A DNA stretch of 26,373 nt from the IMG/VR virus record IMGVR_UViG_3300048006_000014, positions 1-26,373 of that record; one strand, 5' to 3'. This DNA is from a virus. The position numbers and the translations under genes were made by a program. How positions within the stretch are numbered: the stretch's first letter is position 1; each line of letters opens with the position of its first letter. Below the pieces are notes generated by a model. The model was not told where the DNA came from. It saw only the letters and a program-made list of their open reading frames with translations, and did not search any database. This document shows positions 2,428-26,373 of this stretch, one piece after another.

Positions 2428-3201
2428 ATGGCGCACGTTCCCGGACATAATCCAAATGACATGTCGTTTGACCAAATCCTTGCAATGTTAACAGAAAAAT
2501 ATAAGGGGTTAACTGGCGGTGTTATGGAGGGTAACAGAGGCATAGACACTCCAGCAGAACGCGAGTTCTTACAAAATGCAACTAATAGTGATGGTTTTGA
2601 TACTGACGCTGGTTTAATGGATGCAGTAAAGAACTATAAAAATACAAACAGTTATACGTTTGATGTAGATGGTAATACAGAAGGTTATACATTTACTGGT
2701 GATGATTTAAGTAGTGATGCAATTCAAAGAATGCGAGACATGCAAGGTATTACTGCTTACGGACAAGAAGAGCCACTTAACACAATAGGTAATCTAGGAA
2801 TAGGAGCTAGAGGTTTAGACACACCGGCTGAAAGAGAGTTCTTAGCTAATACAATGAACAGAGACCCAGTTTTAATGCCCGGTAGAACACCAACAGTACC
2901 GGATGTAGTACCGGCTGGTATGCACCGAATGCCTGATGGCTCACTAATGAATGACTCTGACATGAATTATGCTGGTACTGGAGAGATGAATCCTAACCCA
3001 ACTGTTGTAGACCGTAATCAATTTAACAGACAATTCGCGGCACTTACTAATGAAGAAAAAGCTAGAGTTGAAATGATGATGTCTCAAATGAATGACCAAC
3101 AAAAAGCAGACTTTGCGGCTGGTCTGACAGGAGCGCCATTAAGTGGTTACGCTGTGCAAGATGAAAGATATGATTACATGAGACGAGGAGGTCGTTTCTA
3201 A
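2428..3201 (+). CDS. Virion-associated protein with two (G)ARG-[LI]-DTPAEREFL motifs
   Basis: A 257-residue protein with no recognised family. The start has a good AGGAG site 8 bases upstream and lies just after the 2372 promoter, making it the first gene of the tail operon. It carries two copies of one motif: RGIDTPAEREFL at residues 37-48 and the longer LGIGARGLDTPAEREFL at 123-139. The longer form recurs in the 508-residue protein at 9023, suggesting a shared binding site or linear motif in two virion components. The middle is polar, and a stretch near 190-235 (Met/Gln/Glu-rich) is likely helical. The C-terminus (RRGGRF) is encoded by the GGAGG ribosome site of the next gene, whose ATG overlaps this stop as TAATG. 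Function unknown; a structural or assembly role is inferred from position. Confidence 0.8.
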   Translation: MAHVPGHNPNDMSFDQILAMLTEKYKGLTGGVMEGNRGIDTPAEREFLQNATNSDGFDTDAGLMDAVKNYKNTNSYTFDVDGNTEGYTFTGDDLSSDAIQRMRDMQGITAYGQEEPLNTIGNLGIGARGLDTPAEREFLANTMNRDPVLMPGRTPTVPDVVPAGMHRMPDGSLMNDSDMNYAGTGEMNPNPTVVDRNQFNRQFAALTNEEKARVEMMMSQMNDQQKADFAAGLTGAPLSGYAVQDERYDYMRRGGRF

Positions 3202-4215: not shown

Positions 4216-5448
4216 ATGGCTTTTGAGTATGGTGAATCGTATTACGGTTTACGTACATTTGGCTCAAGTTTAGGTGAAGTACAGGATGCTTCAGCTACAG
4301 TAACTGCTACTTCAGGTGCTAATGGTGTAAATTGGATTGTCACAATGGGTGGCGATGCTTCTACGACTGTTACATCTAGTGCCACTTGTAGTGGTGAAGT
4401 AGTCATCATTGAGGAAACAGATACTAGAAACTATGGTGATTGGAACTATGGTGTCGGTGTCTTTAATGGTGGACAAGATGATTTACAGACTGTAGTCACA
4501 GCAACGTCAAGTGCTACAGCAGATGCTAAACGTGTTCGAGTAGCTTCAGCAACTGTAACTGTTAACTCAGGAACAACAGTTGGTGTCAGACGTGTACCTG
4601 AAGGTTCTGCACTTATTAACGGTGCATCAACTACAACAGTAACGACAACTGGCAATGGTGCAAGAGTAAGAACAGGTCAAGCTACATCTACTACTACATC
4701 TAGCATAACTGAAAGTGTGATGCGTGTACGCACAAGTCCACAAACAGCTAATGCAGTTGTTACGTCTACTTCTAATGGTGTGTTTATTATAAGTGCATCA
4801 GCGACTGTTAGCGTTGCATCAACAAGTGCGGCTATATGTAATCGTGTAAGATTTGGCTCAGGTGTACCAACAGCAGTAGCCAGTATTACTGTACTCGGAT
4901 ATGCCACAAGAGGAGGTATCGCATCAACGGGAAGCACTCATACAAACGAGGTGACTGTTGCTAGTGTGAGTGGCTCTAACAAATACTTTATAAATGGTGT
5001 TCAGCAAGAAACAATACAACTTGTTGAAGGTAACACCTATGTATTTAATTACCCATCGGCACATCCATTAAGATTTTCTACTACATCAGATGGTACGCAC
5101 AATAGTGGTACAGACTATACAATAACTCATAACTCATCTACGCAATCAACTATTGTTGTGGCTGTTCCAACACCTGACCTATATTATTATTGTCAACATC
5201 ATGCAGGTATGGGTGGCTCAGCACCAACACCAAACAACTCTACAGTCACAAGCACAGCAACTGAATCCGAGAAAATATTTCAAGGTCATGCAGTTACGCA
5301 ACCTACATCAAGTATTACAGCAACATGCAATAGAGTACAACGTGTCGGTGGTATAGTATCATCAACATCAGGTACAGCTACAATAGGTAGAGAGAAGTGG
5401 GAAACAATTATTAATAACACAGTCACATGGACAGAAATAGCGGCATAA
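4216..5448 (+). CDS. Beta-repeat virion protein with cupredoxin-like copper domain
   Basis: A 410-residue Ser/Thr/Val-rich protein, probably an exposed virion component between the small tail protein and the nozzle-like protein. Residues about 15-235 and 336-400 hold degenerate units of about 20 residues that alternate RVR-type turns with Thr/Ser/Val strands (for example ASATVTV, ATSTTTSS, ASATVSVAS), suggesting a beta-solenoid or stacked beta hairpins. Residues about 240-335 form a different domain that reads as a small cupredoxin: LVEGNTYVFNYPSAHPLRFS, then LYYYCQHHAGMGG. Candidate copper ligands are H283, C326, H329 and M332; the C-x2-H-x2-M spacing equals that of amicyanin. Similar segments are common in marine phage structural proteins. 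There is no clear ribosome site and the gap is only 8 bases, so coupling is likely. Copper binding is inferred. Confidence 0.75.
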   Translation: MAFEYGESYYGLRTFGSSLGEVQDASATVTATSGANGVNWIVTMGGDASTTVTSSATCSGEVVIIEETDTRNYGDWNYGVGVFNGGQDDLQTVVTATSSATADAKRVRVASATVTVNSGTTVGVRRVPEGSALINGASTTTVTTTGNGARVRTGQATSTTTSSITESVMRVRTSPQTANAVVTSTSNGVFIISASATVSVASTSAAICNRVRFGSGVPTAVASITVLGYATRGGIASTGSTHTNEVTVASVSGSNKYFINGVQQETIQLVEGNTYVFNYPSAHPLRFSTTSDGTHNSGTDYTITHNSSTQSTIVVAVPTPDLYYYCQHHAGMGGSAPTPNNSTVTSTATESEKIFQGHAVTQPTSSITATCNRVQRVGGIVSSTSGTATIGREKWETIINNTVTWTEIAA

Positions 5449-8175: not shown

Positions 8176-9023
8176 TGGCTAATCAAAGACTACCCGGTGG
8201 TCAGACTACCCCACCAAACATAAACAGCCTAGCGGCTCAAGGTATACAAGGTGCAGGATTAGGTTCTGCGGCAGGCATGGCTTACACACCTAGTCAAGTT
8301 AATGTTGCTGGAACTAGTGCAACAGTTACACCACAGACTCTTGCAGGTACAAACATGCAACCTTACATGAATCCATATGAAGATGCTGTAGTTAAGGCTA
8401 ACGAAGCTGACATACTACGTGGCGCACAAATGGGCATGAATAATTTACAAGGTCAAGCTCAAGCCGCAGGTGCATTTGGTGGTAGTAGACATGGTGTAGC
8501 TATGGGTGAGATAGGCAGAGATACTGTTAGTCAATTAGCTCAAGCTTCAGCAGGACTAAGACAAGCAGGATTTCAAAATGCTCAAAACATGGCATTACAA
8601 GATATTGGTAATAACTTTCAAGGACAATTGGCTAATCAGCAAGCTGGTATGGGTGATATATCAAATAGAATGCAAGCAGATTTAGCTAATCAACAAGCTG
8701 GTCTAGCAGGCGCACAACAAAGACTTGGAGCGGCAAACCAGTTAGGACAAGTTGCTAATCTTGGCTTTAACATGGGTCAAACTGTTAACAATAACTTGGC
8801 TATGCAAGGCGCACAACAACAAGCAATGCAACAAGCTTTGTTTGATGCGGCACAACGTCAATTTAGAGGCTACACAGGACAAGGCGCAAACACTCTTGGA
8901 TATGTAAATCAAGCACTTGGACAAACGCCTAATGTTGGTACTACAACTAAACAAGAAACTAAACAGAATGGAATATTTGATTACTTAACTGCAATGAGTA
9001 ATAGCTATACTGGAGGTAACTAA
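8175..9023 (+). CDS. Gln/Ala/Gly-rich internal virion (DNA transfer) protein candidate
   Basis: A 282-residue protein rich in Gln, Ala, Gly and Asn and very poor in charged residues. The segment MNPYEDAVVKANEADILRG, followed by QAQAAGAFGGSRHGV (about residues 65-110), is the family pattern of phage proteins annotated as internal virion or DNA-transfer proteins. The following region repeats QLANQQAGMGDI, DLANQQAGLAGA and QRLGAANQLG at intervals of roughly 20 residues, as in a long amphipathic helix able to enter membranes. The start overlaps the previous stop (TAATG). The C-terminal YTGGN carries the GGAGG site for the next gene. Ejection role inferred. Confidence 0.7.
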   Translation: MANQRLPGGQTTPPNINSLAAQGIQGAGLGSAAGMAYTPSQVNVAGTSATVTPQTLAGTNMQPYMNPYEDAVVKANEADILRGAQMGMNNLQGQAQAAGAFGGSRHGVAMGEIGRDTVSQLAQASAGLRQAGFQNAQNMALQDIGNNFQGQLANQQAGMGDISNRMQADLANQQAGLAGAQQRLGAANQLGQVANLGFNMGQTVNNNLAMQGAQQQAMQQALFDAAQRQFRGYTGQGANTLGYVNQALGQTPNVGTTTKQETKQNGIFDYLTAMSNSYTGGN

Positions 9024-10549
9024 TGTCACTTGGTAATAGAGCTTTAGGCATAATGGGCATGATTGGACTAAGCGGTCTTGCTGATAAAGACGAAGAGCAA
9101 ACTGCACCGCGAGAAGGCGGAAGTGGCATGGGCATGGGTCTTGGCAACGTTATGACTAGCATGAGTAATTCTTTATTTGAAGGAATGAGTCAAGAAGAAG
9201 TCTACAGAATGGGTCAAAGTTTTAACACTTTACGTTTTGAACCTGATGACAGAATGGCGGCTAATTTCGAGGCAAGACTTAACGCCATGGACAAAGAAAA
9301 AAGCGCTACAGCCGCTAGAACAAACGCTGTAAACGCTCTTTTAAACATGAAATCAGACGAATACCCTAATGGAAGAACAGATTTAGCCGCACTTGTTAAA
9401 CAAGGTGTTATGCCCGGTGCAGATGCAATAAAAGAAGCAATTAAAAAGACTAAACCAAGCGCATTACAAGAAAAATTGGCAATATTTAGTGACCCAGCTA
9501 ATCCATATGGCTTAACAGAGACGCAAAAAACACTTGGTATTAATAATGCGTTAGGCGTAGCTGTTACAAAAAGTGATTTACAAGATAAACTCGATATTTA
9601 CAAAAAAATGAGTGATGATGGCACGTTAACACCTGATATGAAAGAGTTATTGGGTATACCAAAACCAGTACAAACAAAGTTTGACCAAGATTGGGCAAAT
9701 TTAACTTTATTTGCTGAACAAAATGGTATGAAGCCGGCTGAATTAGCTGAAAAACAACTCGCTCTTATTACTGGTGTACAACCTAATGATGGCGTAACAG
9801 CCAAAATGCGTGAAATGGATTACAGAGCCGAGCGTGCTGGTTTAGTACCGGGTACAGATGAATATAAAAACTTTTTCAAAAACTTTGGAAGTGGTGAATC
9901 TAACATTGATATTGATATAGATAATTCTGACCCTACTGCGGATGTAAACGCAGATTATTTGAAAAAAATGCAACAATCTTATGCAGATAAAGATTTAGAA
10001 CAAATTGCGGCAGTTGAGTTAGCAGTAAAAAATATTCGTAAAGTTGACCAAGTTCTAAATATATTGAACGCTGAAGGCGCACAAGCAAACTTAGGCTATT
10101 TGTCTGATTTTCATAGTACCGTTGATAGAGTTATGGCTGACCTTGGTTTGTCCAAAGAAGCGGCAAAAAGCGCAACTTATGACCAACGTTTAGAAGCATT
10201 ACTAGGTAGTGATGTATTTGGAATGATTAACATTCTTGGTATTGGTGCTAGAGGATTAGATACACCAGCAGAAAGAGACTTTCTTATTGAAGTTATGACT
10301 GGTACAAGAAAACTAACGCCTGACGCTTTAAAACAAATGACACTTTACAGACGTAAATACTCACGTTTAGTTGTTGAAGAATATCATAAGCGTTTAGAAA
10401 ACGGTTATTATGCCGATGCAAATGCAGTAAGAGAATTACCAAGATATGATTGGGTAAAACCATTACCGGCATATGAGCCTATGAAGTTAGACGAAATAAT
10501 AACAGCGTCAGACAAAGATATTTTAGATATGTACATAACATTTGATTAA
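9023..10549 (+). CDS. Internal virion protein candidate with GIGARGLDTPAERDFL motif
   Basis: A 508-residue protein, mostly predicted helical and charged, with no recognised catalytic motif. Residues 1-45 are Gly/Met-rich (GIMGMIGLSGLADKDEE, GGSGMGMGLGNV), a possible membrane-active N-terminus. Residues about 70-300 are helical. Residues 405-421 read LGIGARGLDTPAERDFL, the same motif as in the 2428 gene, and are followed by a conserved-looking tail (EVMTGTRKLTPDALKQM, then YRRKYSRLVVEEYHKRL). The ejection-module position between two other internal virion candidates suggests co-packaging. The start has an ideal GGAGG and overlaps the previous stop as TAATG; the next gene starts only two bases after this stop. 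Function unknown. Confidence 0.75.
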   Translation: MSLGNRALGIMGMIGLSGLADKDEEQTAPREGGSGMGMGLGNVMTSMSNSLFEGMSQEEVYRMGQSFNTLRFEPDDRMAANFEARLNAMDKEKSATAARTNAVNALLNMKSDEYPNGRTDLAALVKQGVMPGADAIKEAIKKTKPSALQEKLAIFSDPANPYGLTETQKTLGINNALGVAVTKSDLQDKLDIYKKMSDDGTLTPDMKELLGIPKPVQTKFDQDWANLTLFAEQNGMKPAELAEKQLALITGVQPNDGVTAKMREMDYRAERAGLVPGTDEYKNFFKNFGSGESNIDIDIDNSDPTADVNADYLKKMQQSYADKDLEQIAAVELAVKNIRKVDQVLNILNAEGAQANLGYLSDFHSTVDRVMADLGLSKEAAKSATYDQRLEALLGSDVFGMINILGIGARGLDTPAERDFLIEVMTGTRKLTPDALKQMTLYRRKYSRLVVEEYHKRLENGYYADANAVRELPRYDWVKPLPAYEPMKLDEIITASDKDILDMYITFD

Positions 10550-10551
10550 TT

Positions 10552-13101
10552 ATGGCTACTGAAACTAGACAACCTACTTTTGAACAGTTACAACAAGGCA
10601 TAATTAAAGCGCATAATGCTGGAGATACCGCGTCGGCACAACGCATGGCAGAAATACTTAAAGAATTGTATCCGGAAGGTAAGGTTGAGGTTACACCACA
10701 AAATTTGGTTAATGAAGCACAATTTGCATCAGAAGAACTTGGCGATGTTGAAACAGCCGCAGAACAAATTACACAAACAACAAGACCAGCACAAATTGTT
10801 ATAGCTACAGGTGAACCCGGTGAAGTAGTAACCGAAAATCCAAATGGTATTAGAAGTTATGTAAACCAAGAACAAAGAATTGTTACAGATAATCCGGGAG
10901 TCATAGAAGCCGCACTTGCTTATTTTAGTGGTGCAAGTGATTTAAACCCTGTTGAATTACATAACCGTGAAAAAGCAAAATCTAGTTTAACAACAGCAGA
11001 AAAAATTCAAGGTCTAACTGGCAATATGTTACAAGGCGTTTTAGGTACAGGTAGTAGATTAGATGAAACACTTGGCGGTGTAACAGATGGAGTAAATTGG
11101 TTATATCAACAAGCTAACAGGTCTTTTCCATACACACAAGGTGTGTTTGAAAGTGGTGATACATCACCAAATAATAATTTATTACAAACTGGTGATGAAG
11201 CCAAAGCACGTTACAAAGACGTAGATGCGCGATTCGACACAGCTTATCCGGGCGTATCTATGGGCGCTAATTTAACTGGTGCAATTGGTAGTGGTGTAGC
11301 ACTTGGTACAACAAAACCAGCACAAAAATTGTATTCATGGATTAATGGATTACCGACTTGGCAAAAAATTGTTGGAACTATAGGCGCTGGAGGTACAGGA
11401 GGTTTGCTTGAAGGTATTCTATACGGTAGTGGTTTAGATGAGTCTGATAATAATAAATCAGCATATCAAAACGCTAAAGATATGGGTACGTTAGGAATAT
11501 TAACTGGAGCAGGAGGCGCTGTATTACCAATACCATTTATAGCTGGATGGATAAGAATTAGACATGGATTAAAAGATAAATCGGTTGAAGAAATTGGCGA
11601 AATAATGGATATAAGTCCGGAAGCTAGTAATGTAATGCGTACTGTTCTCGACGATACTGGCTCTACTCTAGAAGATATGACAGATAGAATAGCAAAAGCC
11701 GGTAAAGATGGAATGATAGCTGATGCAGATAAGGCTACAGAAGTTATTACAGATGCAGTAGCAACTGCTGGCGGCGGTTCAGCTTCTACTATTGCTAGAA
11801 ATGTTGAAGAAAGAACAACTAGCGCGTTTCAAGATTTAAACAAGTCTATGGATAAAAACATAGCAGAATTGCCGCCTATGAAAGACGCTCCTGAACTTAA
11901 ACAAGACGCTGTTGAATTAGCTAAAGCATCAGCAGAAAAATCTAGACCAAAAAGACAAGCCGCTTACGACAAATCATACAATTTTAATGTAGATTATTTA
12001 TCTGACGCTGGTACACAAATAACACAGTTGTTAGATGAAATAGACCCAGCAATGATGACACAAGTGTTAAAAAACATTAATGGCAGTATTAAAAAAGCTG
12101 GTGGTGACACTACACAACTTGCACTTAAAAAGAGTCTTAATATTGAAGGTAAAGAAGTCATTGAATTAGCTGAATTACCTACAATGAAACAACTTGATTT
12201 TATTAAAAGAGAATTAAGTAGTATTGCTTACGAATCACCGGGTGTTATGAAACCGGGTCAGATAATTCCAGTTAGAAGTAAATCTGCAAATGATGCTCTA
12301 GACCTACGTTACAGATTATCAGAATTGCTAAAAGGTATGAACCCAGCTTACCGTGAGGCAGTCAAATTAGGGCAAGATAAAATAACACGAGAAAATGCGC
12401 TCGATGTGGGTAGCCGCATGATGAGAACCGATGTAACGCCACAAGAAGTAACGCGTTTAATGAAAGAAGCTGGTGAAGCTGAAAAAGAGATGGCAAGGTA
12501 TGGTTTACGTTCTAATCTTGACCAAATGATTTCTAGGATTAAAGGTTCTCCAACAAGACAAATGGACTCTAAACAATTAGACGTTTTATTTAGAGAGTTG
12601 TCAAGTGATGACAATAGAACAATTCTTAAATCAGTATTAGGAACAAAAGAATACAAAAAATTAGTAAAAATGTTAGATAGAGCAGAGACAGCTATTCACT
12701 TTAAGGCAGTTGTAGCAGAAAACTCTAAAACTGGCATCAGATTGCAAACTAACCAAACTATTAATGAAGCCGCCGCACAACCTGTGCGTGACGCATTAGG
12801 AGAAATACAGCCATTTGTAGCTACTAGAGAAGCACTTAAAAGAATAAATCAAAGTAGGTTGTTTACATCAAAACGCAAAAATATGATTATGAAAGACTTA
12901 GCTAATGCTATGACAGGGCAAAAAGGCACAAAGGCTATTGCACAATTAAGAGAAGTTTATAACGCAGTCAGAGATGGAAACACAACGTTAGCACAGATTG
13001 AATATTTAAGTAATTTTCTTGCAACTAGTTTAAATGCAATTCCAATGGCTACTACAATAGGAACTGGTAGAGAAGTACAAGAATTTATATCAGAGGATTA
13101 A
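10552..13101 (+). CDS. Large internal virion / ejection protein candidate
   Basis: An 849-residue protein directly before the portal gene. The N-terminal 40 residues form a short helical repeat-like element (QLQQGIIKAHNAGDTASAQR, then AEILKELYP), common in large phage virion proteins. Residues about 232-335 hold Gly-rich hydrophobic stretches (GANLTGAIGSGVALG, KIVGTIGAGGTGGLLEGILY, GILTGAGGAVLPIPFIAGWI) that could insert in a membrane, as expected of a protein that forms the ejection channel. The remaining 500 residues are long, charged helices with no peptidoglycan-hydrolase motif that I can see. There is no clear ribosome site; it starts two bases after the previous stop and is probably coupled. 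Role inferred from size, position and composition. Confidence 0.7.
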   Translation: MATETRQPTFEQLQQGIIKAHNAGDTASAQRMAEILKELYPEGKVEVTPQNLVNEAQFASEELGDVETAAEQITQTTRPAQIVIATGEPGEVVTENPNGIRSYVNQEQRIVTDNPGVIEAALAYFSGASDLNPVELHNREKAKSSLTTAEKIQGLTGNMLQGVLGTGSRLDETLGGVTDGVNWLYQQANRSFPYTQGVFESGDTSPNNNLLQTGDEAKARYKDVDARFDTAYPGVSMGANLTGAIGSGVALGTTKPAQKLYSWINGLPTWQKIVGTIGAGGTGGLLEGILYGSGLDESDNNKSAYQNAKDMGTLGILTGAGGAVLPIPFIAGWIRIRHGLKDKSVEEIGEIMDISPEASNVMRTVLDDTGSTLEDMTDRIAKAGKDGMIADADKATEVITDAVATAGGGSASTIARNVEERTTSAFQDLNKSMDKNIAELPPMKDAPELKQDAVELAKASAEKSRPKRQAAYDKSYNFNVDYLSDAGTQITQLLDEIDPAMMTQVLKNINGSIKKAGGDTTQLALKKSLNIEGKEVIELAELPTMKQLDFIKRELSSIAYESPGVMKPGQIIPVRSKSANDALDLRYRLSELLKGMNPAYREAVKLGQDKITRENALDVGSRMMRTDVTPQEVTRLMKEAGEAEKEMARYGLRSNLDQMISRIKGSPTRQMDSKQLDVLFRELSSDDNRTILKSVLGTKEYKKLVKMLDRAETAIHFKAVVAENSKTGIRLQTNQTINEAAAQPVRDALGEIQPFVATREALKRINQSRLFTSKRKNMIMKDLANAMTGQKGTKAIAQLREVYNAVRDGNTTLAQIEYLSNFLATSLNAIPMATTIGTGREVQEFISED

Positions 13102-20111: not shown

Positions 20112-20714
20112 ATGAAATCAACAACAGCAACTATTTCGGAACTTTTTACTGTTCCTATTTATTCTGTAGACTTAGATTTAGATTTAGATAATTTAAGAAA
20201 ATTCTGCAAATACATACAAAATCATGATGCAACTGGTAGAAAGGTTAGTAATTATGGTGGGTATCAATCAAAAGAATTACCATTAAATACTGAAGTATTA
20301 GATGAATTATTGTTAGAAGTGCATAACCATGCAAACTTTTTTGCTAGTAAATTTATAAATGAAGCTGTGCAAAAAGTTGGCAATATGTGGTTTAATGTTA
20401 ATGGTTATAAAGATTTAAACATGCCCCATAACCATCCCGATTCGCATGTATCAGGAGTTGTATATGTAGATACACCAACTAATTGTGGCAAATTATTGTT
20501 TCAACATCCTAATATGGAAACTTTGTCTTATTATGAAGAAGGAGCGAATATTACAAATAGAAATGCTTACAACTCACAGATATGGGAATTTCAACCAAAA
20601 GAAAATAGAATGTTTTTATTTCCTTCATGGGTTATACATAGCGTAAATCAAAATTTAAACAAAACAAAAAAACGATTGTCATTTGCATTTAATACAAAAC
20701 ACCATGAAAGTTAA
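20112..20714 (+). CDS. 2-oxoglutarate/Fe(II) oxygenase-like protein (first)
   Basis: A 200-residue protein of the putative phage 2OG-Fe(II) oxygenase type (2OG-FeII_Oxy_5-like), an enzyme class that hydroxylates proteins or small molecules using iron, oxygen and 2-oxoglutarate. The core is a WFNVNGYKDLNMPHNHPDSH stretch with candidate metal ligands H106 or H108 and D110, then SGVVYVDTP and FLFPSWVIHSVNQN with distal H176, and R188 (KKRLSFAFN) for the 2OG carboxylate. Three parts of the double-stranded beta-helix are thus present. The AGGAGG site sits close to the ATG (3 bases). The halogenase start lies inside this gene's 3' end, so the two are coupled. A TTAGAT triplet repeat codes for LDLDLD near residue 24. 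Substrate unknown. Confidence 0.78.
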   Translation: MKSTTATISELFTVPIYSVDLDLDLDNLRKFCKYIQNHDATGRKVSNYGGYQSKELPLNTEVLDELLLEVHNHANFFASKFINEAVQKVGNMWFNVNGYKDLNMPHNHPDSHVSGVVYVDTPTNCGKLLFQHPNMETLSYYEEGANITNRNAYNSQIWEFQPKENRMFLFPSWVIHSVNQNLNKTKKRLSFAFNTKHHES

Positions 20715-22215
20715 TTCTGTTTGTATTGTTGGTGGTGGTTCTAGTGGATGGATGATGGCACTTGCACTTAACAAAAAACTGCCTAACTTAGATGTAACTT
20801 TAATAGAATCACCTGACACTAAACCAATTGGTGTAGGTGAGTCAACAATACCATATACAGCTAATTTTTTTGTAGATGTTTTAGGTCTAAAAGAAAAAGA
20901 GTGGATGCCTAAATGCAACGCAACATATAAAGCATCAATTAAGTTTAATGACTTCTATAAAAAAGGAGAAACGTTTTATCATCCTTTTTGGACAAGAGAT
21001 GAAGGTACTTACAATGGATATGATTGGGCAATTAAACAATATTTAACGAACCTGAATAAACCTAACAATATAGATTATTACAGCTCAAGTTACATTGCTT
21101 ACCATATGAGCAAACATAATAAATTTGACAGGCTAAATGATGAATTATTTTCATACGCACATCATATGGATGCGAATAAATTTGGTGAATATTGCAAAAC
21201 TAAATTTAAAGGCAAACACATATTATCAAATGTTAAGCATGTTAAAGTTAATGGGTCAACAATTGTGTCAGTTACGATTGACAAAGAAACAATTAAAGCG
21301 GACATGTTTGTAGACTGCACAGGTTTTAAGGCATTGTTAATAGATAAATCATTACATGAGCCTTTTGTATCTTACAAAGATACACTTTTAAACGACACAG
21401 CATTAACTTGTCAAATTAAATATACAAATAAAAAAACACAAATAGAACCTTACACAGACTGTACAGCATTAAGCTCAGGATGGGCATGGAACATTCCTTT
21501 GTGGCATAGAGTAGGCTCAGGATATGTTTTTAGTAGCAAATTTCAGACATTAGAATCAGCAAAAAAAGAATACAAAAAATATTTAAAGAATAGGTTTGGT
21601 GATGACTCACTAAAAAATATTAAATTTAACACTATTAAAATTAAAACAGGAAAATATAAACGTGGGTGGGTAGGTAATTGTTTGTCTTTAACTTTAGCTT
21701 CAGGATTTATAGAGCCTTTAGAATCAACTGGTTTAGCTTTAGCATGTTATCAAATAAAAGAATTTGTAGAAACTATTTCTAATTATGAGTATTCAAGTTT
21801 TAACAAATTATTATATAACAATGAACTCGATAAAACGTACAACGAAATACATAACTTTGTTTTATTACATTATATTAATACAACACGTGAAGATAGTGAA
21901 TATTGGTCTTATTTAAAAAATAATATTGATGTACCTAATTCTGTACATTCATATCTTAACGAAGATGCTAGTAAATCTACATGGTTTCCTGAAAAATCCA
22001 AAGAATGTATTACAATAGGTTTAAACATACCTACAAAATACAAGCCAAGTAAATTAAGTTGGAATAATATTAGACTAGAATCATATACAAAAAAAGACCA
22101 AGCTTTTATATTATATGATTTAAAGTACATAGATGAGCGCAAACAATATTATGAAAACAAAATTAAAGCTATGTTTAATCTAACAGAATATTTAGAAAAT
22201 AATATATACACATAA
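20704..22215 (+). CDS. Flavin-dependent (tryptophan-type) halogenase
   Basis: A 503-residue enzyme of the tryptophan-halogenase family, which uses reduced flavin, oxygen and halide to make a hypohalous acid that a Lys delivers to an electron-rich substrate. I chose the ATG at 20704 because the flavin-binding GGGSSGW (residues 10-16) then falls at its usual N-terminal place; an in-frame ATG at 20683 would add seven residues. The diagnostic motifs are all present: GVGESTIP (43-50), the family catalytic Lys as K76 (CNATYKASIKF), WAWNIP (260-265, the WxWxIP motif) and FIEPLESTGL (335-344) with E340 and the halide-binding T342-G343. Length is near PrnA and RebH (about 530). No flavin reductase is seen nearby, so reduced flavin must come from the host. 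Cyanophages carry relatives (VirX1, an iodinating enzyme). Substrate unknown. Confidence 0.9.
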   Translation: MKVNSVCIVGGGSSGWMMALALNKKLPNLDVTLIESPDTKPIGVGESTIPYTANFFVDVLGLKEKEWMPKCNATYKASIKFNDFYKKGETFYHPFWTRDEGTYNGYDWAIKQYLTNLNKPNNIDYYSSSYIAYHMSKHNKFDRLNDELFSYAHHMDANKFGEYCKTKFKGKHILSNVKHVKVNGSTIVSVTIDKETIKADMFVDCTGFKALLIDKSLHEPFVSYKDTLLNDTALTCQIKYTNKKTQIEPYTDCTALSSGWAWNIPLWHRVGSGYVFSSKFQTLESAKKEYKKYLKNRFGDDSLKNIKFNTIKIKTGKYKRGWVGNCLSLTLASGFIEPLESTGLALACYQIKEFVETISNYEYSSFNKLLYNNELDKTYNEIHNFVLLHYINTTREDSEYWSYLKNNIDVPNSVHSYLNEDASKSTWFPEKSKECITIGLNIPTKYKPSKLSWNNIRLESYTKKDQAFILYDLKYIDERKQYYENKIKAMFNLTEYLENNIYT

Positions 22216-22224
22216 GGAGGTGTA

Positions 22225-22899
22225 ATGATAGACAGAATGTTTGAATTAAGGAGTCCAACGCCTTTATCGCCATATGCAATGAATTATAAATTTCATCTTT
22301 CTAGGTCAATTTGGGATGACGAAAAACAAATAGATACTATTAAAAAATTTTGTTTAAAAAAAGAAAAAGAAATTCTTAAACTACCATACAACAATGATGG
22401 TGGAACAGAATTAGACGATAATGCAGTTACAACAAGATTTGCAAGATATAACTTATTTGATTTTGTAGACGAATGTCCTGAACTTAAAAATCTATGGGAA
22501 GAAATACACAAACATTGGTATGAAAGAATTAAACGTGAAAATACAACTGCTTATAAAACTAAAATAGTTTGTTGGTTTAATGTTTTGCGACAAGGTGAAC
22601 AAATGGCTGACCACAGACATTCTAATAGATTTTCAGCATATTTAAGTGGTAACATACATTTAGACAATTATCACACGCATACAACCTATAGATATTTAGA
22701 TAATTGGATTGAAATAGAAAATATTAAAGGAGGATTAGTAATGTTTCCAAGTCAATTATTACATGGTACTAATAAATATCATGACAAAAATGAACGAGTT
22801 AGTATAGCATTTGATTTGCATCTTACAAATCTTAACGACATAGAAAACGAAGCTCTACAATTTGCTAGTAGAGATTTTTATAGTGAACAGAAAGATTAA
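22225..22899 (+). CDS. 2-oxoglutarate/Fe(II) oxygenase-like protein (second)
   Basis: A 224-residue protein, distinct from the 20112 gene but with the same core layout: IVCWFNVLRQGEQMADHRHS with candidate ligands H130 and H132, a strand YLSGNIHLDN, then GGLVMFPSQLLHGTNKYHDK with distal H180 and ERVSIAFDLHL with R191. The acidic metal ligand is not clear (H-x-H rather than H-x-D), so the iron site may be unusual or inactive. A strong AAGGAGGTG site precedes the ATG. It immediately follows the halogenase, which suggests the three proteins act on one substrate or pathway. The 3' end overlaps the next gene's start. Family call moderate, function inferred. Confidence 0.65.
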   Translation: MIDRMFELRSPTPLSPYAMNYKFHLSRSIWDDEKQIDTIKKFCLKKEKEILKLPYNNDGGTELDDNAVTTRFARYNLFDFVDECPELKNLWEEIHKHWYERIKRENTTAYKTKIVCWFNVLRQGEQMADHRHSNRFSAYLSGNIHLDNYHTHTTYRYLDNWIEIENIKGGLVMFPSQLLHGTNKYHDKNERVSIAFDLHLTNLNDIENEALQFASRDFYSEQKD

Positions 22900-23464
22900 C
22901 AACGCAATAGCATTTGGCATAGTAGCCGCGTTTTGGATTATTCTAGTTATTCCTGTATCTGTTTATGCTGTAGATGAAAGCTCAATTACTCAAAATACAA
23001 CATCTACGGTGACTACATCATCAGATAACACTACTACAGTCAAATCGCCTCCACCAAGTGCCATATCTCCAAACGTAGGTGGTAACAACTCAGACCTTTG
23101 TACAATATCGTCTAGTGGTGCAATGGGTACGCAAATATTTTCATTAAGTCTTGGTGCTACATATACTGAAAAAAATTGCCTGAGACTAAAAAACGCTAAG
23201 ACATTGTATGATTTTGGTATGAAAGTTGCGGCAGTTTCATTACTATGTGCTGACCCTTCCGGCGAAATCCATAGGGCGATGGCTATGGCAGGCACTCCCT
23301 GCCCCTATATGGGAAAAATAGGAAGTGAAGCAACTGCGGCATGGGAAGTCCATACAGAAGACATACCAGTACCAACACGTGAACACGAAAAATCTGCACA
23401 GGAGAAAAGAGATGATGCAATCAAGATTATGGGTGCTATCGCTTCTGCTTTTTTGTTCTTCTAG
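22883..23464 (+). CDS. Secreted protein with four cysteines (cassette gene 1)
   Basis: A 193-residue protein with a GTG start at 22883; an in-frame TTG at 22862 would put extra residues before the signal peptide. Residues 1-29 (basic NRKINN, then a hydrophobic stretch ending VSVYA) form a signal peptide, with cleavage likely after A29. A Thr/Ser/Pro-rich linker follows (residues 33-65), then a compact domain with C73, C99, C122 and C140 (CTISSSGAMGTQIFSLSLG, then CLRLKNAKTLYDFGMKVAAV and AGTPCPYMGKIG). The C-terminus is hydrophobic (MGAIASAFLFF), possibly a membrane anchor. It overlaps the upstream oxygenase gene by 17 bases and the next gene by 53. Similar proteins recur in marine phages; function unknown. 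Confidence 0.7.
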   Translation: MNRKINNAIAFGIVAAFWIILVIPVSVYAVDESSITQNTTSTVTTSSDNTTTVKSPPPSAISPNVGGNNSDLCTISSSGAMGTQIFSLSLGATYTEKNCLRLKNAKTLYDFGMKVAAVSLLCADPSGEIHRAMAMAGTPCPYMGKIGSEATAAWEVHTEDIPVPTREHEKSAQEKRDDAIKIMGAIASAFLFF

Positions 23465-24275
23465 CATACAAGCTTACAGTTTCGGTTACACACCTAACGT
23501 AGCTATTAGTGGTTTAGAATGGACAATGACTCCTACTTATCTTGGTGCTAATGGCATTAATGGTATGGATGTATCAGGTGTCACTTACAAGTACACTCCT
23601 ATAAAAAACAAAGAGGATGACTACGTTGTTACACTTGAAAATGACAAAATAGGTGGTGGTTATGTGTTTCAAGACAAACAAGACTGGTCACAGCGTGAAG
23701 GTGGTATTGAGGTAAGAAGAACTATCGCCTTGCCATATACTCCACTTGCTGTTTTTGGTGATGGTAGATTAAAACAAGAAGGCACAGGCAGTATAGAAAA
23801 TGCAGATGTTAGATACATATACAGATTTGACCCTTGCTTTGACCCACAAAGTGACCCAAACTGTCCGGGATATAAAAAACCTAAACCACCACCATTACCT
23901 GAGATACCTGATTACGATGCTTTGCAAGATGAGTCAGTAGCTATTGCACAGGCTGAAACAGACAGAAAATTGTTAGATGATGAACAAGCTGAAAAAGAAG
24001 AAGAGGAAGAAGAGGAAGAGGAATCTTTAGAATTTATGTTAGCTGATGTTCAAAACGCGTTGACTATAGCTAATGAAATAGCACAGTCAGTCATACTACA
24101 ACAATTAAACAATGTAACTAATTTAACAAACTACTATGTGTCTACGATACCTGACAATTACTACCCTGATGCTGTAGCTTTACAAGGTGGTACGATAGTG
24201 GATAATAGGAGAGCATTAAGGAGCTTATCGCAGGATGCGAGAATGAATGAGATGATAGAGGAGCAATACAAATGA
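23412..24275 (+). CDS. Secreted protein with acidic coiled tail (cassette gene 2)
   Basis: A 287-residue protein. I chose the ATG at 23412 because AGGAG lies 7 bases upstream and a signal peptide (MMQSRLWVLSLLLFCSSSIQ-A) then starts the protein; a longer frame open to 23325 would bury it. The mature part opens with a beta-type domain to about residue 155: DWSQREGGIEVRRTIALPYT, PLAVFGDG, GSIENADVRYIYRFDPCFDP and PNCPGYKKP, with C142 and C151 as the only mature cysteines. A proline-rich hinge, a run of nine Glu (196-204) and a helical end follow. The segment ALPYTPLAVFGDG is recurrent in marine phages, but I know of no function. It overlaps the previous gene by 53 bases and the next by four (ATGA). 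Confidence 0.7.
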   Translation: MMQSRLWVLSLLLFCSSSIQAYSFGYTPNVAISGLEWTMTPTYLGANGINGMDVSGVTYKYTPIKNKEDDYVVTLENDKIGGGYVFQDKQDWSQREGGIEVRRTIALPYTPLAVFGDGRLKQEGTGSIENADVRYIYRFDPCFDPQSDPNCPGYKKPKPPPLPEIPDYDALQDESVAIAQAETDRKLLDDEQAEKEEEEEEEEESLEFMLADVQNALTIANEIAQSVILQQLNNVTNLTNYYVSTIPDNYYPDAVALQGGTIVDNRRALRSLSQDARMNEMIEEQYK

Positions 24276-24769
24276 AAAAACTATTAATCGCACTTAGCTT
24301 CATACTTTGTGCAACACCAATTATAGCCGCAGATATTAATGGCACAGTAGAATCGAGATGCACAGTAGCGACAACTGTCGATGGCAAATATGGCAATCCG
24401 AACGCATATACGCTGACAACAGACCCTGCTAGTAATGGTCAAGTACCTGTAATTCGCTTTGATACAACCCTAGCCAATGCCTATTATGCTCAGGTGTCAT
24501 TCCCTACTAGCTTTAGCTCAAGTCCATCATTGTCTGACAATGTAACGTGGACTGGTGCTGTGTCTGTAAAAGCTACAGGTGCAGATGGCATGAGCGGCTA
24601 TCAGACTGCATCAACAACTACAAATGGTGGTGCAACAAGACAGTACGCACTTAGCGTTGCAGGTAGTGTTTGGCTACAGTCAACGTCAATAGCTGTATAT
24701 GGTGGTAACAGAGCGTTTCCGGGTGGTGCATATAAATCAGTAGTATTAGCTGAATGCGTAGCTCAGTAG
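24272..24769 (+). CDS. Secreted beta-sandwich protein, pilin-like in layout (cassette gene 3)
   Basis: A 165-residue protein with a clear signal peptide (KKLLIALSFILCATPIIA, cleavage after about A19). The mature part is Ser/Thr/Val/Gly-rich with alternating strands and exactly two cysteines, C30 near its N-terminus and C162 near its end (DINGTVESRCTV and VVLAECVAQ), as in a disulfide that ties the two ends of a small beta sandwich. That layout recalls chaperone-usher pilins and spore-coat U domains, but no signature confirms it. GAGGAG lies 8 bases before the ATG, and the start overlaps the previous stop. Relatives occur in marine phages. A pilin-like role is inference. Confidence 0.6.
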   Translation: MKKLLIALSFILCATPIIAADINGTVESRCTVATTVDGKYGNPNAYTLTTDPASNGQVPVIRFDTTLANAYYAQVSFPTSFSSSPSLSDNVTWTGAVSVKATGADGMSGYQTASTTTNGGATRQYALSVAGSVWLQSTSIAVYGGNRAFPGGAYKSVVLAECVAQ

Positions 24770-25128
24770 CACTATGTTTGTTACTGTTTAATTACGCAGT
24801 ACATAGTCACGAGCAAACACCTACATATCCAAAGTGGACAGTTAGTGGAGTTAGTGAAGTAAAGAAGACACAAATCAGGTTGTGGAACTCTCGACCTGAT
24901 ATAGAGTATTATGAGATAGGAGTATTCGATGGGGATTGGCAACCAATACCCTTTGTTACAGCTTATAAGATTCTCCCTGTCGAATACTTGCAAGAAGTTA
25001 AGATTGATATATACATTAGGGAAAGTAACATAGCAGAAGCTAGATATGTCTGTTCTTTATCTAAATTAAGGAGTAACGATGAGAGTCAAACTTTGTTAGC
25101 TACTAGGATATGTTCAAAATTCAAATAA
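24754..25128 (+). CDS. Small secreted protein with two cysteines (cassette gene 4)
   Basis: A 124-residue protein. Residues 1-18 (MRSSVALCLLLFNYAVHS) are a signal peptide. The mature part is rich in beta strands (TQIRLWNSRPDIEYYEIGVF and VKIDIYIRES) and has exactly two cysteines, C100 (RYVCSLSK) and C120 (ATRICSK). The immunoglobulin-like strand pattern beside a pilin-like neighbour makes a periplasmic chaperone-type fold conceivable, but it is much smaller than a PapD chaperone and lacks a recognisable motif. It overlaps the previous gene by 16 bases and the next by 19, with no clear ribosome site, so it depends on coupling. Confidence 0.65.
   Translation: MRSSVALCLLLFNYAVHSHEQTPTYPKWTVSGVSEVKKTQIRLWNSRPDIEYYEIGVFDGDWQPIPFVTAYKILPVEYLQEVKIDIYIRESNIAEARYVCSLSKLRSNDESQTLLATRICSKFK
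25079..25099 (+). CDS. Six-codon mini-ORF with a strong ribosome site
   Basis: AAGGAG (25068-25073) is placed 5 bases before an ATG that encodes MRVKLC and then stops, 10 bases before the ATG of the next secreted gene. It lies inside the 24754 gene in another frame. It may be a ribosome-loading leader that feeds re-initiation at 25110, whose own start has only a poorly spaced AGGA. It could also be a chance match; no sequence evidence beyond spacing. Confidence 0.3.
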   Translation: MRVKLC

Positions 25129-25541
25129 AATGTTTGCTGTTGCTAATGCTTAGTACACAAGTCATAGCTAACAGTAGCACATCCTTAAACCTACAATTAC
25201 CGAGTGGTGGCTCATCTTTTGGTACAGATAGTATTAAAGCAGGTGACTTAGACTGCTCAAACAGCATAGGAGGGTCAACAGTATTTGATGTCGGCATGAC
25301 TGGCATTGTTAATAACGCTGTAACACCTATCATTGGCAAAGAAGACCCAAACAACCCTGAAGCAAAACAAATAGGTGTCTATGCAAGAATTGTTATACCA
25401 CTTGATGCACCAAGAGAACGTATAAACTGTAACACGCTCTATCAACTTGAGCTACAAAGACGTAGGCTAGAGGTTGAAAAGTTGCGCCAAGAAATAGAAC
25501 TGTTAAAATCTATGCAACAAGGAGATGGTTTTGACAACTGA
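25110..25541 (+). CDS. Small secreted protein with helical end (cassette gene 5)
   Basis: A 143-residue protein. Residues 1-20 (basic MFKIQIK, hydrophobic CLLLLMLSTQVIA) are a signal peptide. The mature part has a Gly/Ser-rich beta region, then DCSNSIGGSTVFDVGMTGIV, VYARIVIPLDAPRERINC and a charged C-terminal helix (YQLELQRRRLEVEKLRQEIE) able to form a coiled coil. C49 and C107 are its only mature cysteines. It overlaps the previous gene and carries the next gene's ribosome site in its own 3' end. The last of five secreted proteins in a row; recurrent in marine phages, function unknown to me. Confidence 0.7.
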   Translation: MFKIQIKCLLLLMLSTQVIANSSTSLNLQLPSGGSSFGTDSIKAGDLDCSNSIGGSTVFDVGMTGIVNNAVTPIIGKEDPNNPEAKQIGVYARIVIPLDAPRERINCNTLYQLELQRRRLEVEKLRQEIELLKSMQQGDGFDN

Positions 25542-26001
25542 TTTAGGTGAAAAGGTAGCAGAAATAGAAGGCTTGGTCGATAAACGACTAAAGCTAGGAA
25601 GTTTAAGGTTTACATACACTCAGTTAGTAGGTGCATTTGCTCTGCTTTCTACGATTGTGGGTTCACTCTATGGAGGGTTCTTAATGTATCAAAAAGTTGA
25701 AGGAATCGCAAATTTGGACTTAGGAGCAATACAGGCATCTATGGAGGCTACGTCAGCAGATGTACTTAGAGTAGAAGAAGTAGCTAAAGAAATTAAGGTA
25801 GAACTTAAAGAAGACCTTGCTAGATTACGCACAGCACAATATAATCTTGAGAATAGGATTGATTCTAAACTTCAATCTATAGATGTACGCATTACTACAA
25901 TGGACAATAAGCTTGATAAATTTGACATACAGTTAGACGATACAGAAGAGAAACTAATGAAGCGAATACAGCAGTCATTAGACAACCCACTAAGTAACTG
26001 A
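25531..26001 (+). CDS. Membrane-anchored coiled-coil protein
   Basis: A 156-residue protein. The TTG at 25531 is preferred: GGAG (25521-25524) is spaced 6 bases from it, whereas it touches the in-frame ATG at 25525. One transmembrane helix (YTQLVGAFALLSTIVGSLYG then GFLMYQ, near residues 28-52) is followed by about 100 residues of charged heptad-like helix (EVAKEIKVELKEDLARLRTA, DSKLQSIDVRITTMDNKLDK). A short N-terminal helix lies before the membrane helix. The topology resembles an inner-membrane spanin or a holin accessory protein, but no catalytic or family motif is seen. It is placed between the secreted cassette and small membrane genes, compatible with a lysis or envelope role. Function inferred. 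Confidence 0.7.
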   Translation: MTTDLGEKVAEIEGLVDKRLKLGSLRFTYTQLVGAFALLSTIVGSLYGGFLMYQKVEGIANLDLGAIQASMEATSADVLRVEEVAKEIKVELKEDLARLRTAQYNLENRIDSKLQSIDVRITTMDNKLDKFDIQLDDTEEKLMKRIQQSLDNPLSN

Positions 26002-26017
26002 TAACATAGGAGATATT

Positions 26018-26062
26018 ATGCCAAAACGCGGAAGAAAAAAACCACCAGTAAAGAGGTACTGA
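26018..26062 (+). CDS. 14-residue basic micropeptide
   Basis: A 14-codon reading frame, MPKRGRKKPPVKRY, preceded by a strong AGGAG site spaced 6 bases, in the short space between two membrane-protein genes. Its TGA overlaps the next ATG (TGATG), and its last codons contain the AGAGG ribosome site of that gene. Seven of 14 residues are Lys or Arg. It is below usual gene-length cut-offs and would normally be missed. It may be a real peptide or a coupling device that loads ribosomes for the next gene; the strong site and the exact overlap argue that it is translated. Confidence 0.65.
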   Translation: MPKRGRKKPPVKRY

Positions 26063-26250
26063 TGACAGCAAAACAACAAGCACAGCTCGATAGACACGAG
26101 AAACAGATTGCCGACCTTTATAAAGACGTAAGAGAAATAAAGAACATGAACTTAAAATTTATGTCTATGGGTAAAGGATTATTAATAGGCTTTGCGGTTA
26201 TGGTAGCGGCTGATATTGGTATTGGCGAAATAATTATGAAACTTTTATGA
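26062..26250 (+). CDS. Small coiled-coil membrane protein, holin-like topology
   Basis: A 62-residue protein with a charged N-terminal helix (KQQAQLDRHEKQIADLYKDV then REIKN) and one C-terminal transmembrane helix (MGKGLLIGFAVMVAADIGIG). That layout, helix first and membrane segment last, resembles XhlA-type haemolysin/holin proteins, but it is short and no conserved motif proves it. Translation is coupled to the micropeptide (TGATG) and to the next gene (ATGA). No endolysin is visible in this window, so the lysis assignment stays open. Confidence 0.65.
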   Translation: MTAKQQAQLDRHEKQIADLYKDVREIKNMNLKFMSMGKGLLIGFAVMVAADIGIGEIIMKLL

Positions 26251-26373
26251 TTGCTTTTCTTACAAACATAGCACCGATAGGCTTAGGCTTCATTGCTAAA
26301 TTGTATGCACTCAAGAGTCAAGCGGCTTCTGACCAACAGAAGCTAATGATAGAAAATTTACAAGCTCGTAACG
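26247..26373 (+). CDS. Small membrane protein (3' partial)
   Basis: The ATG at 26247 overlaps the previous stop (ATGA) and the frame stays open to the right edge, showing 42 residues. It opens with a hydrophobic segment (MIAFLTNIAPIGLGFIAKLY) followed by a polar helix (ALKSQAASDQQKLMIENLQA). One membrane helix and a cytosolic or periplasmic coiled segment are likely. It continues the run of small membrane proteins; function unknown. Confidence 0.6.
   Translation, partial: MIAFLTNIAPIGLGFIAKLYALKSQAASDQQKLMIENLQARN

Follow-up and report, generated by a model that had tools for sequence, protein, structure and literature searches.

Two modules of exported, cysteine-paired proteins in a marine phage, one with a predicted half-size pilus chaperone

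In a viral stretch of 26,373 nt (IMGVR_UViG_3300048006_000014, a virus record of about 26 kb that represents a fragment; the whole stretch is hereafter called the window), five overlapping genes, designated g1 to g5, encode proteins that are very probably disulfide-paired and periplasmic. The block consists of two separately travelling modules, g1-g2 and g3-g4-g5. In the latter, structure modelling makes a PapD-like fold likely for g4, which probably works like the chaperones of chaperone-usher pili, and on balance we favour the reading that g3 and g4 are a subunit and its chaperone. The five genes are as follows.

g1, 22883..23464, plus strand: GTG start; exported protein of 193 residues (aa) with a signal peptide of about 29 aa; cysteines 73, 99, 122 and 140
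g2, 23412..24275, plus strand: exported protein of 287 aa; N-terminal part with the cysteine pair 142 and 151, then a proline-rich, acidic linker and a conserved C-terminal end (MNEMIEEQYK)
g3, 24272..24769, plus strand: exported, pilin-like protein of 165 aa with a predicted all-beta fold; cysteines 30 and 162
g4, 24754..25128, plus strand: exported protein of 124 aa, predicted to be single-domain and PapD-like; cysteines 100 and 120, predicted to lie on F1 and G1, its last two strands
g5, 25110..25541, plus strand: exported protein of 143 aa; cysteines 49 and 107; C-terminal heptad-like stretch

Export signals and conserved cysteine pairs

The initial annotation had reported an N-terminal signal peptide in each of the five adjacent genes. 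According to a rule-based test (basic n-region, hydrophobic core, and small residues at -3 and -1), all five indeed pass, compared with 1 of the 25 other window genes, which scored weakly, and 1.8% of internal segments. Nearly all complete homologues passed the rule as well (65 of 66 unique sequences for g4), and the failures were mostly truncated or mis-started frames. Neighbouring genes in the block overlap by 53, 4, 16, and 19 nt, in support of the earlier suggestion that such strongly overlapping genes are made together, and the block also overlaps its flanking genes, by 17 nt upstream and 17 nt downstream. At 23412-23464, the same 53 bases are read in two frames, as the hydrophobic end of g1 and as the g2 signal peptide.

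The mature parts of g1 to g5 contain 4, 2, 2, 2, and 2 cysteines. At the background rate of the remaining window genes (0.45 cysteines per 100 residues), the probability that all five counts are even and at least two is approximately 2.6e-5. Exactly these counts occurred in every one of 48, 46, 46, 44, and 37 unique homologues of g1 to g5, respectively, which are related sequences rather than independent events and reach down to approximately 40% identity; the cysteines occupy the same alignment columns, and none is added in that region. The even numbers given in the initial annotation are thus conserved, and no relative with a single unpaired cysteine appeared among these homologues. Adding the relatives from Pelagibacter, Roseobacter, and Vibrio phages takes identity down to 20-30%. 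Relatives of g1 in Pelagibacter and Roseobacter phages, at 28-41% identity, still have all four cysteines, and Vibrio phages retain the pairs of g3, g4, and g5. Cysteines within the signal peptides vary among homologues, and g6, the next gene downstream, has none. Two caveats apply to g3. Its cysteine 162 is partly forced by the overlapping g4 start codon; it is also kept where g3 and g4 overlap little or not at all (loci L068, L131, and L153). Further, the 12 of 67 g3 homologues with a lipobox would carry one additional, lipid-bearing cysteine in the mature protein. Together, the conserved signal peptides and cysteines support the export and disulfide pairing that had been proposed.

Two modules with separate distributions

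The five genes do not behave as a single system of five proteins. Gene order was counted at 78 distinct loci, all from viral contigs except for one misbinned contig, and g3 was present at 77. At all 71 loci with room for it, g4 follows g3, and g5 comes next in 65 of 65. Upstream of g3, g2 was found at 59 of 63 loci and g1 at 46 of 50, and all exceptions were Vibrio phages. The block can be 60-80% identical between phages whose portal or head proteins share only 20-35%, so the cassette passes from one phage lineage to another.

Relatives of g1 occur in the Pelagibacter phages HTVC115P, HTVC202P, HTVC023P, HTVC033P, Baldr, and Mosig, in the roseophages CRP-207 and CRP-810, and in spring-water phages. 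Downstream of g1, the phages HTVC115P, HTVC202P, and Mosig encode first a larger protein that looks exported and has an acidic or proline-rich stretch, and then a g6-like protein with a transmembrane segment and a coiled coil. Conversely, g3-g4-g5 is found without g1-g2 in Vibrio phages of T5-like, 83-kb, and 60-kb types, with 179 records for both g4 and g5. There, the module has two large genes without signal peptides on one side and, where these were recognised, a holin and an M15 endolysin downstream on the other. One scan of viral contigs alone returned 312 relatives of g4.

The 15-base overlap ATGCGTAGCTCAGTA, at the end of g3 and the start of g4, is identical in the window and in the Vibrio phage Morian. 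Accordingly, gp143 of Morian has probably been given a start too far downstream, and g5 of this phage is unannotated. In Vibrio phages Morian (L078, 5654-6351) and 1.205.O (L143, approximately 4965-5370), g4 was annotated too short or missed, and frames overlapping the neighbouring genes restore full signal peptides. Among bacterial genomes, g3 had a single match (L153), on a contig binned into the Rhodobacteraceae assembly Water_Bin34 that is evidently phage DNA and carries the whole g1-g6 cassette, and a pattern scan of bacterial genomes for g5 found no relative. With divergent g3 and g4 as queries, no cultured phage with the whole block was found.

A predicted half-size pilus chaperone

The g4 sequence of Vibrio phages (LTLSPMRV... 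to AKLRLYWP) suggested the N-domain of PapD, and we therefore modelled g3 and g4 with AlphaFold from alignments of the window and locus sequences. For the g4 model (predicted local distance difference test, pLDDT, of 91), pilus chaperones led the Foldseek matches (DraB, FaeE, FimC, Caf1M, CupB2, and PapD), the best being DraB with E = 1.2e-4 and a probability of 1.00. VIA-align matched 94-100 of 106 residues to FimC, Caf1M, SafB, and PapD-type chaperones with Z of 10.2-10.7 and a root-mean-square deviation of 2.5-3.6. The model places the two cysteines opposite one another in the last hairpin (residues 82 and 102 of the model, in strands 80-88 and 95-104). A disulfide between F1 and G1 is a mark of the F1-G1 long (FGL) chaperones (PMC4133393), and g4 likewise has a cysteine pair predicted on these strands, where such a bond may form; unlike them, g4 has a short F1-G1 loop. 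The C-terminus of g4 falls where chaperones have their conserved G1 lysine (PapD Lys112), with a basic C-terminal residue in the window and a basic residue there in nearly all homologues (CSKFK, AKLRL).

With PapD-type chaperones (FimC, DraB, FaeE, Caf1M, and CsuC), g4 shares the signal peptide, the predicted N-domain fold, and a position beside a subunit or subunit-like gene, and the AKLRLYWP end of Vibrio g4 resembles their G1 end, SRIKLYYRP. It differs from them in having one domain (approximately 106 aa when mature) where chaperone-usher chaperones have two immunoglobulin (Ig)-like domains, and in lacking both a PapD_N match and an accompanying usher or adhesin gene. A chaperone of half the usual size is not unheard of, since single-domain chaperones exist in the archaic pilus loci (SCPU) of Rhodobacteraceae. 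These proteins (e.g., L165:1010-1447), approximately 147 aa long, resemble g4 in their single domain, their place beside a subunit gene, and their two cysteines, which flank the last loop; unlike g4, they come from bacterial genomes, keep the PTR motif, have a larger gene as neighbour, and show little sequence similarity to g4. At L164-L168, the single-domain chaperones of approximately 147 aa end in RHSVPLCF.

A proposed pilin-like subunit

The g3 model (pLDDT 90.5, with a loose N-terminal stretch of 10 residues) gave CfaB, the PapG pilin domain, and FimG as its top Foldseek matches, with E from 4e-3 to 4e-2. Integrins, AP2 mu2, and staphylococcal adhesins in the Foldseek and VIA lists were read as generic Ig-like similarity, and a structural search among viral models returned nothing convincing. 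In 66 of 67 homologues, the first cysteine is preceded by the motif [IVF]-x-[GST]-x-[VIL]-x-S-x-C (the N-terminal extension of the window protein is DINGTVESRC), which resembles the stretch ahead of the first cysteine of pilins. Like the pilins of chaperone-usher systems (CfaB, FimG, and the PapG pilin domain, as well as SCPU/CsuA-B), g3 is predicted to be all-beta with a cysteine near each end and a hydrophobic-x-Gly-x-hydrophobic stretch before the first one. Unlike pilins, it has a weak structural score, no Pfam match, and no export pore, and some members look like lipoproteins. The lipobox (LTGC or LAGC followed by Ser, or by Ala in L121) is present at L054, L057, L059, L066, L067, L070, L071, L121, L125, L126, L127, and L132 and absent from the window g3; judged by this motif, g3 of that clade may be an outer-membrane lipoprotein.

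A sequence-based test of the pairing and a search for ushers

Because Ig-like folds are common, a second, sequence-based test was made, in which the score of each profile comparison was set against 200 column shuffles. Against the chaperone and pilin profiles of E. coli K-12, the observed score was reached by 1 of 200 shuffles for g4 with chaperones and by 2 of 200 for g3 with pilins, whereas the swapped pairings were at chance level (171/200 and 109/200). The Rhodobacteraceae families, used as a second set, behaved alike: 1/200 and 1/200 for the expected pairs, 110/200 and 193/200 for the swapped ones. The alignment of the g4 and chaperone profiles spans 101 columns and ends with AKLRLYWP opposite SRIKLYYRP. 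A profile built from Vibrio g4 only gave no signal against chaperones (140/200 shuffles reached the score), so the match depends on the combined alignment. Because absolute scores were low, the pairing supports the fold reading rather than proving descent. Further, the order of g3 and g4 is the subunit-then-chaperone order of the fim, sfm, elf, and yra operons of K-12.

No outer-membrane usher (PF00577) was found in any of 13 phage records, in a search whose E. coli control was positive; the window record is a fragment, and the Vibrio phage records are long or complete. According to the features tested, including this one, g4 was not filed as a member of the chaperone-usher family.

A proposed envelope function and its alternatives

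The initial annotation had offered four roles without choosing among them. We propose, as a view about evenly poised, that the block is a late export cassette in which g3 and g4 act as subunit and chaperone and which changes the host envelope. Late in infection, g3 and g4 would enter the host periplasm through their signal peptides (Sec), where the cysteine pairs would close. The last strand of g4, stiffened by its bond to the neighbouring strand, would complete the fold of g3 until g3 is handed over to an envelope partner, which could be g5, another g3, g1/g2, or a host outer-membrane protein. Without an usher, g3 would be expected to stay in the envelope rather than leave the cell as a pilus, and the altered outer membrane might no longer allow sister or rival phages to bind or inject. 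The formation of a g3-g4 complex, the hand-over, and its purpose are steps that we infer. With somewhat less confidence, we extend the proposal to lytic phages of marine bacteria and of Vibrio. These may possess a chaperone-subunit pair, complete in itself and usher-less, with which a disulfide-stabilised structure is assembled late in infection, either in the host periplasm or at the inner side of the outer membrane.

As for purpose, we tentatively prefer the blocking of re-adsorption or superinfection, because of the precedent of T5 Llp and the lipobox in part of g3, a feature in keeping with a target in the envelope. Llp, a phage lipoprotein of the periplasm whose gene lies beside that of the receptor-binding protein, blocks the receptor from within (PMC9586334). 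Like the superinfection-exclusion lipoproteins Llp (T5) and Cor (T1), g3 to g5 are small exported phage proteins; unlike them, they form a set of larger, cysteine-paired proteins with a lipobox only in a minority of g3.

Several observations weigh against these proposals. In Pfam, neither a PapD_N match for g4 nor a pilin match for g3 was found, and PF00345 gave no match to g4 at E ≤ 1 in six records. The profile probabilities, taken absolutely, were low (1-5%). For g3, the fold match is weak: its template modelling (TM) score is approximately 0.45, and unrelated Ig-like folds score nearly as well. At similar Z, g4 is matched by major sperm protein and by a glycosidase Ig domain. Most members have another residue in place of the anchoring arginine of PapD: Arg stands at the Arg8 position only in D96a-type Vibrio homologues, and Tyr or Ile elsewhere. 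Finally, the cassette is approximately 70% identical among phages with very different portal proteins, and its sharing across unrelated portals disfavours a receptor-specific block tied to one tail fibre.

The missing family matches, the weak TM score of g3, and the similar scores of other Ig-like folds would also be expected if g3 and g4 were unrelated, generic Ig-like periplasmic proteins with some other envelope role and a pilus likeness due to chance. We consider this rather unlikely, as it leaves aside that, in each of two independent sets, only the expected partner families match and not the swapped ones, and that the gene order agrees with the K-12 operons.

Help in lysis comes a close second to a superinfection block because of the gene neighbourhood, although it too is rather unlikely. 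Three features lie downstream of the block in the window.

g6, 25525..26001, plus strand: membrane-anchored coiled-coil protein without cysteine
g7, 26062..26250, plus strand: small protein with a coiled coil and a single transmembrane segment at the C-terminus
Start of a holin-like membrane gene, 26247..26373, plus strand: cut by the window end; resembles the gene of relatives at the same place

In such an accessory lysis cassette, the exported proteins would act on the outer membrane by weakening or tethering it and, together with g6/g7 and the holin, bring lysis to completion or set its timing. The block adjoins holin-like genes in the window group and lies upstream of a holin and M15 endolysin in Vibrio phages, g1-g2 recur with a transmembrane coil protein beside the holin in Mosig, and the holin of Vibrio phage pVp-1 is of the T4 T type. 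In T4, the periplasmic protein RI, whose signal peptide is cleaved, sets the timing of lysis (PMC8385771). Against this, no enzyme and no spanin pair were recognised, a pilin-like subunit accompanied by a dedicated chaperone is not known as a component of lysis systems, and g1-g2 of HTVC202P lie by the terminase and portal genes, with no holin annotated in the stretch read. Compared with a two-component spanin, g6 has the inner-membrane coil form, no lipoprotein gene was recognised in the window block, and the Vibrio module has a lipoprotein gene after g5.

A virion or released surface structure, in which g3 polymerises by strand exchange and coats virions or debris after lysis, or exits through a host usher, gains content from the pilin-like fold and N-terminal extension of g3, from the position of the block after tail-fibre genes in the window group, and from archaic pilus subunits in a minority (9 of 149) of the sampled genomes of the family of the Rhodobacteraceae bin, yet it is very unlikely, given that virions assemble in the cytoplasm, apart from exported protein, and that 12 of 67 g3 homologues look lipid-anchored. 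Of the roles first offered, the surface structure thus acquired candidate parts in g3 and g4, and a fibre made in the usual way is unlikely because no usher was found.

If g3 and g4 do act as subunit and chaperone, phages use the principle of pilus assembly for a purpose of their own and without an usher. In the literature searched, we found neither donor-strand chaperoning in phage biology nor a phage-encoded chaperone-pilin pair nor proteome work on these phages, absences that prove little. The cassette is common and is annotated as hypothetical in the records read. Cultured phages of the laboratory strain Vibrio campbellii BB120, such as Achelous and Morian, carry g3-g5, which makes its function directly testable.

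Family matches and genome setting

Relatives of g1, g3, and g5 fall into the PHROG families phrog_20531 (E = 1e-14 for g1), phrog_25895, and phrog_37374, respectively, all listed as of unknown function, and no PHROG family matched g4 at a meaningful E-value. No meaningful match was obtained in NCBIfam or, for anti-phage and counter-defence systems, in PADLOC, and a sequence search of solved structures with the g3 and g4 profiles gave chance matches only. Curli (csg) genes were considered and dropped, as no Pfam match pointed to them.

The window belongs to a podovirus-like marine phage. Its recognisable parts include a portal, a scaffold, a major head protein, and a tail fibre that bears an S74 chaperone domain; the closest annotated portal is that of Octadecabacter virus DB2, with 44% identity. 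The tail genes are followed by a variable insert, g1-g5, the two small membrane coiled-coil genes, and the start of the holin-like gene. g6 comes after the block in most relatives, and g6-like proteins accompany g1-g2 in pelagiphages. The gene of Mosig equivalent to the holin-like gene of the window has a GTA_holin_3TM match. In a near relative (L012), a DUF1353 protein (10841-11338) is encoded after the holin-like gene, and no endolysin was recognised at that locus.

Between the tail genes and g1, the insert (20112-22899) encodes a 2OG-Fe(II) oxygenase, a tryptophan halogenase, and a second 2OG-Fe(II) oxygenase; most relatives are without these three genes or have other genes in that place. 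Elsewhere in the window, two predicted proteins (2428-3201 and 9023-10549) contain the peptide GxRG[IL]DTPAER, one of them in two copies and the other in a single copy; these repeats look as if a short motif had been copied inside the virion gene region.

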